This document shows positions 14,833-18,040 of a DNA stretch of 64,000 nucleotides, piece after piece. Position 1 is the first letter of the stretch, and each line of letters begins with the position of its first letter. The notes under the pieces were generated by a model. The model did not search any database. It was not told the origin of the DNA and saw only the letters and a list, made by a program, of their open reading frames with translations. A program made the position numbers and the translations under genes. Origin of the DNA: Candidatus Krumholzibacteriia bacterium (lineage in GTDB: Bacteria; Krumholzibacteriota; Krumholzibacteriia; LZORAL124-64-63); the NCBI GenBank assembly GCA_016744705.1, contig JADGDU010000001.1, positions 62,001-126,000 of the forward strand, written 5' to 3'.

Positions 14833-14861
14833 TTGACATTTGCCGAAGGAGTCTTTAGAAT
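14833..14861 (+). promoter_or_regulatory. Sigma-70 promoter of the methionine operon
   Basis: TTGACA at 14833-14838 and TAGAAT at 14856-14861 are separated by 17 bases, close to consensus. The transcript should begin near 14868 and carries the leader peptide, attenuator and then metB and the metL-type gene. Confidence 0.75.
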
Positions 14862-14910
14862 TTGGTCCTCAATCAAGTCAGATGAAAGAGCGCCACGGCG
14901 CAGGAGCATC

Positions 14911-15027
14911 ATGTTTTTGAATCGCACATATCTCAATATTGCAACCATCCCAATGACCATGGCTATGCCCATGGCCATGGCTATGCCATGGCCGGGTGCT
15001 GTGCGTTCGCATGGGAGGATGATCTGA
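14911..15027 (+). CDS. Methionine-rich leader peptide of the met operon
   Basis: 38-codon ORF starting ATG at 14911 after CAGGAG. It has eight Met codons, six of them within eleven residues (positions 15-25; codons at 14953, 14959, 14965, 14971, 14977, 14983), sequence PMTMAMPMAMAMPWP at the core. It is located between a near-consensus promoter and an intrinsic terminator directly upstream of metB. Slow decoding of these codons when Met-tRNA is scarce would stall the ribosome and, by the pairings described for 14992-15103, allow read-through. It is not expected to have a function as a protein. A longer in-frame extension to 14755 starts upstream of the promoter and is rejected. Confidence 0.85.
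   Translation: MFLNRTYLNIATIPMTMAMPMAMAMPWPGAVRSHGRMI
14973..14993 (+). promoter_or_regulatory. Leader hairpin inside the Met-codon run
   Basis: GGCCATGGC (14973-14981) and GCCATGGCC (14985-14993) form a perfect 9-bp stem with a TAT loop. It coincides with the last three clustered Met codons, where a pause hairpin that synchronises RNA polymerase with the leading ribosome would be expected. Confidence 0.6.
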
Positions 15028-15081
15028 CCTGAACTGATCGACCTGACATGAAGAACATCCTGAGGGAAGCACACCACCTGG
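14992..15081 (+). promoter_or_regulatory. Predicted antiterminator pairing of the met attenuator
   Basis: 14992-14998 can pair with 15075-15081 (7 pairs, one G-U), 15000-15004 with 15069-15073 (5 pairs) and 15006-15008 with 15066-15068 (3 pairs), with one C-C mismatch and one bulged G. The 3' side includes the whole 5' arm of the terminator (15073-15081), so the two structures exclude each other. The 5' side begins just after the Met codons, where a ribosome stalled on them would leave it free. Confidence 0.7.
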
Positions 15082-15103
15082 CCTTAACCACGGTGGTTTT
15101 TTT
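15073..15103 (+). terminator. Attenuator terminator upstream of metB
   Basis: ACCACCTGG (15073-15081) pairs with CCA-C-GGTGGT (15088-15097, one bulged C) around the loop CCTTAA, followed by seven T (15097-15103). It is an intrinsic terminator placed between the leader peptide and the metB ribosome site. Confidence 0.85.
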
Positions 15104-15138
15104 GTGCCAATTATTCCCTGTTCCAGGAGTTTTCGATC

Positions 15139-16314
15139 ATGCCAGCAAACAACTACAACACAGTGTGCATACGCGGCGGCCAGGACGCCGACCCCACCCA
15201 CGGAGGCATCTTGCCCCCGGTCTACCAAACCACCATTTTTCGCCGCAAAGTTGTGGGCGAAGACCAGGACTTCACCTACAGCCGAGTAGACAATCCCACT
15301 GTGGCGGCCCTTGAATCCAGACTGGGCGCTCTGGAAAACTGCCTGCCTGCAGTGAGTTTCAGCAGCGGAACCTCGGCCATCAGCACCCTCTTTCTGGCAC
15401 TGTTGAAAAAGGGCGACCACGTGGTGTGTTCTGATGTGGTGTATGGCGGGACTTATCGCTTTTTGGTGGAAGTGCTCGAAAAACTGGGAGTCACCAGCGA
15501 TTTTGTGGACACCTCTGATCTGGCTTCCACCAAAAGAGCCCTGCAACGCCCCACCAAGTTGCTGCTATTGGAATCTCCTGCCAACCCCACCCTGAAACTG
15601 ACCGACATCGCCGCCAATAGTGACCTTGCACATGAGTACGGAACGTTGGTCGTGGTGGACAATACTTTCCTTACTCCTGTGCTGCAGCGCCCTTTGGATT
15701 TGGGCGCCGACCTCACCATCTATTCCACCACAAAGTTCATAGACGGCCATAACGCCACCATCGGGGGAGCTCTTTGCACCCGCGACGAAGCCATCCGCGA
15801 AGAACTGGCCTTCTACCGAAAATGTGTGGGCACAATCCAAACAGCTCACAATGCCTTTTTGACTTTGCAGGGCTTAAAAACCCTGCCTTTGCGCCTCAAA
15901 CAGCAAACGTCAAACGCCCTGGCAGTGGCCAGCCGGTTGGAGGGTAACCCCCATGTGAAAGAAGTCATTCATCCTGATTTGCCCTCATTTCCCCAGAGGG
16001 AATTGGCAGACCGACAGCAGGCCTCAGGGGGCGGTTTGGTGACCATCGTATTGCACGGTGGGTTGCCCGAAGCCTGTCGAGCCCTGGGAGCCTTGAAGCT
16101 TTGCACCCCCGCCCAAAGTTTGGGAACGGTGGAAACACTGGTCACTCACAACGCCACCATGACCCATGCGGAAGTGCCCGATGAGCGGCGCTTGCAATTG
16201 GGTATCGTCGATGGATTGGTCCGCATTTCCGTCGGACTTGAAGACCCTCAGGACATTGCCGCTGATCTGGAACAAGCTCTCACCATTGCCTTCAAGGAGG
16301 TGTGCCATGCATAG
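15139..16314 (+). CDS. metB: Cystathionine gamma-synthase family PLP enzyme
   Basis: 391 residues, full length for the Cys/Met metabolism PLP-dependent family. Features: Tyr-Ser-Arg motif TYSRVDNPT (PLP phosphate), SSGTSAIS, the Asp of VVVDNTF that contacts the PLP ring nitrogen, and the Schiff-base Lys in IYSTTKFIDGHN. It would join activated homoserine and cysteine to cystathionine (or, with other specificity, act as gamma-lyase or sulfhydrylase); operon context with an aspartokinase-homoserine dehydrogenase and a Met-rich leader favours biosynthesis. AGGAG lies nine bases before the ATG. It overlaps the next gene by 8 bases, so they are translated together. Confidence 0.88.
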   Translation: MPANNYNTVCIRGGQDADPTHGGILPPVYQTTIFRRKVVGEDQDFTYSRVDNPTVAALESRLGALENCLPAVSFSSGTSAISTLFLALLKKGDHVVCSDVVYGGTYRFLVEVLEKLGVTSDFVDTSDLASTKRALQRPTKLLLLESPANPTLKLTDIAANSDLAHEYGTLVVVDNTFLTPVLQRPLDLGADLTIYSTTKFIDGHNATIGGALCTRDEAIREELAFYRKCVGTIQTAHNAFLTLQGLKTLPLRLKQQTSNALAVASRLEGNPHVKEVIHPDLPSFPQRELADRQQASGGGLVTIVLHGGLPEACRALGALKLCTPAQSLGTVETLVTHNATMTHAEVPDERRLQLGIVDGLVRISVGLEDPQDIAADLEQALTIAFKEVCHA

Positions 16315-18040
16315 CCCCATCGTAGTTTTGAAATTTGGTAGTTCGGTGCTCGAAAACCATGACGCTCTTCCTGCAGCAGTGCTGGAAATTTATCGGGAGA
16401 TCAGACGCGGCAGGCGGGTCGTGGCTGTGGTCTCCGCCTTCGGCAATCGGACTGATGAGTTGCTCTCTTCGGCCCGGCAATTGTTTGACGAGCCCGACCC
16501 TTCCAGCCTGGCCCGGCTACTGGAAACTGGCGAAGCAGAAGCCGCTGCCACCCTGGGACTGGCTTTGGATCAGGCTGGTGTTCCGGCCCGAATTTTGGAT
16601 GCGGGACAAATTGGCCTCACCACCAGCGAAGATATTTTGGATGCCGAGCCCCACGATTTTGACGTGGTGCGTTTGCGACAGGAATTGTTGGATGTCCCCG
16701 TCATTGTAGTACCTGGATTCAGTGGAAAATTGAAAAGCGGCGCACCGGCTTTGTTGGGCCGGGGTGGCTCTGACCTCACGGCTCTCTTCCTGGCCCATGG
16801 CTTAAGAGCTGCGGAATGCCGATTGCTGAAAGACGTAGATGGCTTGCTTCAAGTGCGTGAAGATGGCAGCCTGGATTACGGCACCCGTTACGCCACCGCA
16901 AGTTATGACGAGTGCTTGCGAGTGGGCGGGCCCTTAATCCAACCTAAGGCCGTAGAATTTGCAGCACGCCATAACTTGAGTTTCCGCATCGCCAGCTGTG
17001 GTTCCGGAGGTGGTACTTTGGCGGGCCCAGTGAAAAGCCGGTTTGAAAGTGTGGACCCGGCACCAGCCCCCACGACCGTGGTTTTGGGAGGTCTGGGAAC
17101 GGTGGGCCTGGGAGTCTTCCGCTGGCTGCAAAGTCTGAAAACCGACTTCCAGGTGGTGGGCATTCTGGTCCGGAATTTGACCAGCCCCAGGCCAGAAGAC
17201 GTCCCCTCTCATTTGCTCACAGACTCTGTGGAAAAGCTTTTGGAGACCCAACCTGAATTGGTCATTGAGGTCGTGGGAGGCACCGGGGCTGCCGCCGATC
17301 TGGTGCATCAGGCTCGTGCCGCCGGGAGCCGGGTTGTCAGTGCCAACAAACAGTTATTGGCCATCGAACCGGAACTGTTGAAAGAAACCGCCTTTGGAAA
17401 TGGCAGACTGATGGCCTCGGCCAGTGTTGGTGGCAGCGTTCCCGCCCTGGAATCGGTGGCCTCATTGGTTCAAAGAGAAGAAGTCGTTTTGGTCCAGGGA
17501 ATTCTCAACGGAACCTGCAATTTCATCCTCGACAGAGTCAATGGAGGGATAGAAGTTGAGGACGCCCTGGCCCTGGCCCAGGACCTGGGACTGGCGGAAG
17601 CCGACCCCCACCTGGATGTCAGCGGACTGGATTGTGTTTACAAACTGTCCTTGCTGGCCACTCGCGCCTTTGGTGAAGAGGTGACTGTTGACCTCATCGA
17701 ATGTGAGGGGCTGGACGGAATCACCGCCGAACGTTTGCAGCAAGCTACTGAAAACGATGGCGAGTTGAAACTGGTGGCTTCTGCCAAACGTACATCTTCT
17801 GGTATTAAGGCCCGCGTTGGGCTGGAGATTTTGCTCCCACATCATCCTTTGTTTGGCTGCGAGAAGGAAGCCAATCGCTTGGTCATTGAGACTGAAGGGC
17901 ATCGCCAGGTTGTTTTTGATGGCAAAGGGGCTGGGCGCTGGCCCACCACGGTGGCGGTGGTCGGTGATGTTCTGCAATGTCGTCGGGCTGATTTGAGTAC
18001 GGGCAAGGAACGGGGCTTGAGGAGGGCCAAAGCATCCTGA
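16307..18040 (+). CDS. metL: Bifunctional aspartokinase-homoserine dehydrogenase without ACT domains
   Basis: 577 residues, well below the roughly 810-820 of E. coli ThrA/MetL. Aspartokinase part (about 1-245): VLKFGSSVL, GRGGSDLTALFLA, KDVDGLLQV. It joins directly to homoserine dehydrogenase (about 258-577): nucleotide-binding GLGTVGLGV, VSANKQLLA, NGTCNFIL, GLAEADPHLDVSGLDCVYKL and GKGAGRWPTT. The region where ACT regulatory domains normally sit is missing, so allosteric inhibition by Thr, Lys or Met is not expected; the leader attenuator may carry the control. The order metB then AK-HSD is the same as the E. coli metBL operon, hence the symbol, which is an inference. The ATG at 16307 has a perfect AAGGAGG and overlaps the metB stop. 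Confidence 0.9.
   Translation: MHSPIVVLKFGSSVLENHDALPAAVLEIYREIRRGRRVVAVVSAFGNRTDELLSSARQLFDEPDPSSLARLLETGEAEAAATLGLALDQAGVPARILDAGQIGLTTSEDILDAEPHDFDVVRLRQELLDVPVIVVPGFSGKLKSGAPALLGRGGSDLTALFLAHGLRAAECRLLKDVDGLLQVREDGSLDYGTRYATASYDECLRVGGPLIQPKAVEFAARHNLSFRIASCGSGGGTLAGPVKSRFESVDPAPAPTTVVLGGLGTVGLGVFRWLQSLKTDFQVVGILVRNLTSPRPEDVPSHLLTDSVEKLLETQPELVIEVVGGTGAAADLVHQARAAGSRVVSANKQLLAIEPELLKETAFGNGRLMASASVGGSVPALESVASLVQREEVVLVQGILNGTCNFILDRVNGGIEVEDALALAQDLGLAEADPHLDVSGLDCVYKLSLLATRAFGEEVTVDLIECEGLDGITAERLQQATENDGELKLVASAKRTSSGIKARVGLEILLPHHPLFGCEKEANRLVIETEGHRQVVFDGKGAGRWPTTVAVVGDVLQCRRADLSTGKERGLRRAKAS

Follow-up and report, generated by a model that had tools for sequence, protein, structure and literature searches.

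A probable methionine leader-peptide attenuator before metB-metL in Krumholzibacteriota, with SAM-I/IV-like riboswitches at sister loci

Introduction

Which signal governs the metB-metL genes of a Candidatus Krumholzibacteriia bacterium, and through what kind of leader does it act? Leader-peptide attenuators are textbook regulators for Trp, His, Leu, Ile/Val, Thr, and Phe, and methionine control is known to run via MetJ, SAM riboswitches, T-boxes, and SahR-type repressors. The question arises from a 64,000-nt stretch of this genome (hereafter the window), in which a short open reading frame (ORF) rich in Met codons and two competing hairpins lie between a promoter and metB. An earlier note on this DNA, made from its letters alone, had read the region as a methionine attenuator and had named no Met leader-peptide attenuator known to be characterized.

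The known attenuated operons in one compilation include no methionine case (PMC1183508), the work of Seliverstov et al. revealed no RNA structures ahead of the methionine operons of Actinobacteria (PMC1262725), and no Met leader peptide is mentioned in the part of the article by Naville and Gautheret considered here (PMC2965389). However, a reannotation of Streptomyces lividans proposed a Met leader peptide from the Met codons before the methionine transport operon metNIQ; that peptide, MSTTSDRTPATEATTTPGARCMCRRMCAF, has three Met including the start, and a typical Rho-independent terminator is lacking (PMC8079986). We found no other report in the open-licence literature, and an earlier one in a subscription journal is possible.

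Results

The arrangement of parts described in the earlier note is present. All window coordinates given here are on the plus strand. Transcription would begin at a sigma-70-type promoter, TTGACA-17-TAGAAT (14833-14861), which scores 11/12 and bears out the near-consensus promoter first claimed; promoter-like hexamer pairs lie at the matching place in all 10 leaders with sufficient upstream sequence (the window and nine others). The Met-rich leader peptide ORF, MFLNRTYLNIATIPMTMAMPMAMAMPWPGAVRSHGRMI (14911-15027), has 38 codons, an ATG start, a TGA stop at 15025-15027, and a counterpart in 10 other genomes, and the good ribosome site ascribed to it is a Shine-Dalgarno sequence, AGGAG (14902-14906), 4 nt before the start. 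Its control region (14953-14985) does hold six Met codons in eleven residues (residues 15-25, MTMAMPMAMAM), starting at 14953, 14959, 14965, 14971, 14977, and 14983. Past the Met run, the ORF reads through GGCCGGGTGCTGTGCGTTCG (14990-15009) before reaching its stop. A purine-rich, Shine-Dalgarno-like GGAGGA also stands a few bases before the leader stop (15010-15027 and the matching alignment columns) in most of the ten leaders that we call canonical, meaning all but a divergent one in genome G077; it might delay the ribosome during termination or base-pair with a conserved CATCCTGA further down.

Two helices compete downstream of the Met run. The antiterminator joins a 5′ arm at 14990-15008 to a 3′ arm at 15066-15083 with a core of 14 bp, and the intrinsic terminator (15073-15103) consists of a stem, 15073-15081 with 15088-15097, and a run of seven T at 15097-15103, with a folding energy of approximately −12.6 kcal/mol. 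The segment GAAGCACACCACCTGGCC (15066-15083) can therefore pair either with 14990-15008 or, via its second half, with 15088-15097. The terminator was thus correctly placed at the outset, and the alternative stem, first given as 15 pairs between 14992-15008 and 15066-15081, exists but is slightly larger; it overlaps the terminator 5′ arm as had been said, but takes in 8 of its 9 bases rather than all of them. Overall, the original coordinates were correct to within two base pairs. A simple terminator scanner run on the window did not list 15073-15103, apparently owing to a bulge. Of 200 dinucleotide shuffles of the 237-nt leader, 199 fold less well than the leader itself (z −2.67).

Two further pairings were considered as possible protectors. 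Met codons can form a small hairpin, GGCCATGGC-TAT-GCCATGGCC (14973-14993), which overlaps the base of the antiterminator arm; 89% of its cells are paired in the ten-leader alignment, though it has no double changes there. A region-1 protector in the early ORF, which looked like a copy of the terminator arm, did no better than dinucleotide shuffles (Stouffer z −1.1).

To place the leader among relatives, we took a census of metB homologues in 58 related genomes and then in 80 genomes of the class, which make up the whole phylum sample, so that its distribution was assessed within Krumholzibacteriota. The close relatives are Candidatus Krumholzibacteriia/Krumholzibacteriota metagenome-assembled genomes. 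Eleven of the 80 genomes, from two families, carry a metB at least 54% identical to that of the window, and all of them have the Met-rich ORF, the antiterminator, and the terminator. In each, a short ORF with a ribosome site lies between promoter and first structural gene and has at least 4 Met in 12 residues (up to 7), and a stem followed by at least six U precedes the first gene. The peptides include MYQRRSNSNNAHMGIMRMQMLMTMVMAMPWPGAVRSSGRLI in G001, MTMYRILHHDNARMMMLMPLTMAMAMPGPGRCLFAWRRDR in G030, VKHFVSGTNAQAMMAMTEAMAMPWPVRCAFPRRTIR in G041 of the other family, and MIRMLTMTMAMMPRASGGRPVVD in G077. No such ORF was found upstream of 80 other metB/metC-type PLP-enzyme genes, a few of these stretches being cut by contig ends. 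The earlier note had left to such an alignment whether the Met-rich ORF is missing from relatives; the Met run and both stems persist in every relative that keeps this metB.

A covariance model built from ten leaders gave a matching picture when searched against the 80 genomes: it recovered those ten at E ≤ 4e-22, all 5′ of metB, with the next match at 5e-4. Among the weak matches below 30 bits (L067-L073), only L072, in G077, has a Met-rich ORF and precedes metB; the others have no Met-rich ORF before metB and were treated as chance. In G077 (L072:1488-1827), the divergent Met leader and its terminator are followed by a second small ORF, MTPRSAQIHVMSMSMPRPGR..., which resembles the end of a canonical leader, so that two Met leaders possibly stand in tandem before metB.

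The genes downstream belong to methionine synthesis. The metB-type gene (15139-16314) starts with its own ribosome site and encodes a Cys/Met metabolism PLP enzyme (Pfam PF01053, 1.2e-125; NF005871, 1.8e-114) whose best NCBIfam match is cystathionine gamma-synthase, below the family cut-off. Its end is overlapped by a metL-type gene (16307-18040), recognized by domain matches as a fused aspartate kinase/homoserine dehydrogenase and adjoining metB in relatives. As the earlier note had seen, this enzyme lacks an ACT domain (none matched in a Pfam search), and the window's genome, of 4.43 Mb, has a single homoserine dehydrogenase match. A search of the same genome for SAM (RF00162) and SAM-I/IV (RF01725) riboswitches gave no match. 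Attenuation may be the main control of metB-metL. G041 has aspartate-semialdehyde dehydrogenase (asd; L037:5568-6683, minus strand) in place of metL next to metB, as its following gene, and the Met leader therefore serves a different aspartate-pathway operon there, metB with asd.

Conservation among the leaders is of two kinds. Within the Met run, the ATG codons are fixed while the intervening codons vary: Ala codons between GCT, GCC, and GCG, and Pro codons between CCA, CCC, and CCG. Immediately after it, the RNA motif GTGCGTTC is kept in two reading frames, giving V-R-S in one clade and G-A-F or RCxF elsewhere, and because these nucleotides are kept despite the frame shift, it is the RNA and not the peptide that appears constrained here. 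Comparison of the leaders thus indicates conservation at the protein level for the Met run and at the RNA level for the stretch that follows it. Spacing is also held: in 10 of 11 leaders, namely all ten canonical ones, the last Met codon begins exactly 7 nt upstream of the antiterminator arm, and in these ten the stop lies 42-45 nt past that codon. Unlike the Met codons, the region 5′ of the run is not conserved across leaders. The Met-run DNA is not in itself rare, as patterns of the MxMxMxM type have 23 hits in the window's genome, some of them antisense of His runs. For this reason, the case rests on conservation and position, through which mere chance was set aside, rather than on the rarity of the run. 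Another Met-run-like stretch, at G000:C70:73019-73051 (L218), looks like the antisense of a His-rich run, maybe in a metal-binding protein.

Covariation supports both competing helices. RNAalifold recovered the antiterminator unasked from the ten-leader alignment, with six pairs in the whole fold kept by two-sided changes. When the antiterminator structure was given, 98% of cells were paired and 5 pairs (10 cells) were doubly changed, a covariation score reached by none of 500 shuffles; sliding the helix by one to three columns lowered pairing to 34-51%. In 5 of 10 leaders, all relatives of the window, one A-U pair of the terminator has become G-C, matching a change in the antiterminator. Compensatory changes, for which the earlier note had looked to related genomes, are therefore found in both helices. 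The parts of the leader, their conservation, and their mutually exclusive pairing all emerge, as far as sequence can indicate, from the letters and their comparison.

We then folded only the part of each leader that lies 3′ of a ribosome's leading edge, on the assumption that this edge is 12 nt beyond the first nucleotide of the A-site codon. For a ribosome on the Met codon that lies two codons 5′ of the last one, the predicted probability of the antiterminator was 0.90-1.00 and that of the terminator approximately 0 in each of the ten canonical leaders. A ribosome moved on to the last Met codon covered the antiterminator arm, and the terminator returned in most leaders; with the ribosome at the stop, the terminator was predicted at 0.91-1.00 in the canonical leaders. 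The masked folding that had been proposed at the start thus came out as anticipated in these ten, and the divergent G077 leader fitted the model less well, only partly. Stalls on the first two Met codons of the window's leader do not favor the antiterminator, so only part of its Met run would act. Untranslated RNA at equilibrium was predicted to favor the antiterminator in 8 of 10 canonical leaders. As long as the 3′ arm has yet to be transcribed, 74-93% of the 5′-arm bases are predicted to find upstream partners; this exceeds the codon-shuffled mean in all ten leaders, but clearly in only three.

Not every member of this metB group has a Met leader. In the metB tree, a supported clade (99/97) of 12 sequences comprises nine with a Met leader and three with a SAM-I/IV-like aptamer (G015, G024, and the Acidobacteria genome Mor1); G077, with its Met leader, groups with Mor1, and the leader-type labels require at least two changes. 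A third genome of the G015/G024 genus also carries the aptamer, so that SAM-I/IV-like matches (RF01725) hold the equivalent place before metB in three Krumholzibacteriota relatives of the same family (genus g11) and in Mor1 (L011:1579-1726, minus; L012:2789-2916, minus; L234:533-641, plus; L047:3626-3780, plus). These matches score 26.6-30.9 bits against a gathering score of 41.1, but they have the conserved core and the right place and probably represent a divergent branch that the Rfam threshold misses. The gene order metB-metL is the same at both kinds of locus, with metL next wherever it is visible. Because nearby members of one metB clade carry a SAM-I/IV aptamer instead of the Met leader, the sensor of one operon appears to have been exchanged. 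A separate SAM-I/IV-like match of 37.8 bits in G041 (L206:1501-1620, minus) neighbors a DNA cytosine methylase gene that lies on the opposite strand.

Discussion

We read the leader as a ribosome-mediated transcription attenuator with charged elongator tRNA-Met as its signal, and we put the probability of this reading at roughly 0.86. Scarce Met-tRNA would stall the ribosome on a leader Met codon preceding the last one, leaving 14990-15008 just ahead of it free to pair with 15066-15083 and take the 5′ half of the terminator. With the antiterminator formed, RNA polymerase would read on into metB-metL. Plentiful Met-tRNA would let the ribosome proceed to the stop at 15025-15027. There it would sit in the antiterminator loop, where it may block the apical part or the closing of the helix, or the arm may re-pair upstream behind it; with the antiterminator prevented, the terminator at 15073-15103 would form. 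The stalling, its coupling to transcription, the direction of the response, and the prevention of the antiterminator by a completed ribosome are what we infer. The earlier note's interpretation is largely supported, with a reservation on its trp/his-type geometry: folding agrees that a stalled ribosome frees the arm for the antiterminator, but the stop lies 15-24 nt 3′ of that arm in canonical leaders (~21 nt in the window), so a terminating ribosome would not simply mask the arm as in trp.

Could the peptide rather than the codons be the sensor? Nascent peptides that arrest the ribosome are known from TnaC, which responds to tryptophan, and from MTO1 of plant CGS1, and a conserved M-A-M-P-x-P-G might likewise arrest it on free methionine or SAM and so choose between the same hairpins. 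Such a motif does exist, as AMP(W/G)PG or a one-residue variant ends the Met run in all ten canonical leaders. However, G077 has no PxPG after its Met run, and the conserved codons past the run coincide with the antiterminator arm, where RNA pairing explains the conservation because the nucleotides are kept across frames. Moreover, a ribosome arrested on the last Met codon or 3′ of it would lie over the antiterminator arm, and folding from there gives mostly the terminator. We consider peptide sensing very unlikely.

The RNA might instead bind SAM, Met, or tRNA directly as a riboswitch or T-box, with the ORF incidental, and the SAM-I/IV-like aptamers in the equivalent place at sister loci lend this some appeal. 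A SAM-I/IV riboswitch senses SAM through its aptamer, a T-box answers to Met-tRNA charging by means of a Stem I specifier loop and a T-box sequence, and MetJ and SahR are proteins that respond at methionine operons to SAM or SAH. Yet nothing in the window attains the gathering score of any Rfam family, and even at an E-value of 10 the leader has no riboswitch or T-box match and no aptamer core of the SAM clan (RF00162, RF00634, and RF01725). The conserved structure comprises the antiterminator, the terminator, and the short Met-codon hairpin, with no covarying aptamer helix, and conservation falls on the Met codons and not on the sequence 5′ of them, all of which makes direct binding very unlikely. 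Least probable, to the point of being nearly negligible, is that the Met run reflects a gene for a His-rich protein on the opposite strand, the hairpins being an ordinary terminator. Runs of ATGNNNATG complement CATNNNCAT, at least one further Met run in the window's genome looks like such a reflection, and several leaders have long open spans in the antisense frame; but in G009, G001, G077, and G007 that frame is interrupted fairly close to the run, and the codon variation is synonymous for the sense Ala and Pro and not for the antisense residues, which together led us to rule it out. Likewise, only the sense strand explains the position, the promoter, the covariation of the antiterminator, and the linkage to metB.

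Like the enterobacterial attenuators of trp, his, leu, thr, ilvGMEDA, ilvBN, and pheA, the leader combines a promoter, a short ORF rich in codons for the amino acid of the pathway, and an antiterminator that excludes a terminator before a biosynthetic operon. Unlike them, it would respond to methionine, which is also needed to start every peptide; its ORF runs through the antiterminator arm and stops ~21 nt beyond; it has no clearly supported region-1 protector; and it belongs to the phylum Krumholzibacteriota. The S. lividans metNIQ proposal was likewise assigned to methionine by leader Met codons, but the Krumholzibacteriota leader is a full covarying attenuator before biosynthetic genes. 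Judged from its sequence, this is a real, conserved attenuator of known mechanism, and its methionine specificity is one that we have not found described.

More tentatively, and at slightly less than even odds, we suggest that this is the first true Met attenuator, that it was exchanged with a SAM-I/IV sensor within one metB-metL clade, and that its layout could be adapted to a signal amino acid that initiation itself requires. By layout we mean an ORF that runs through the antiterminator arm, a stop beyond it, and untranslated RNA that tends to read through at equilibrium. As a speculation, default read-through of untranslated RNA would suit a Met sensor, as starvation would also slow leader initiation. 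If the proposal is true, lineages differ in what this one operon senses, Met-tRNA charging in some and SAM in others. A conserved Met attenuator would fill a gap in the list of amino acids and extend the mechanism to Krumholzibacteriota, one operon would show a change between charged-tRNA sensing and SAM sensing, and the leader would pose the puzzle of an attenuator whose signal amino acid also starts its own translation.
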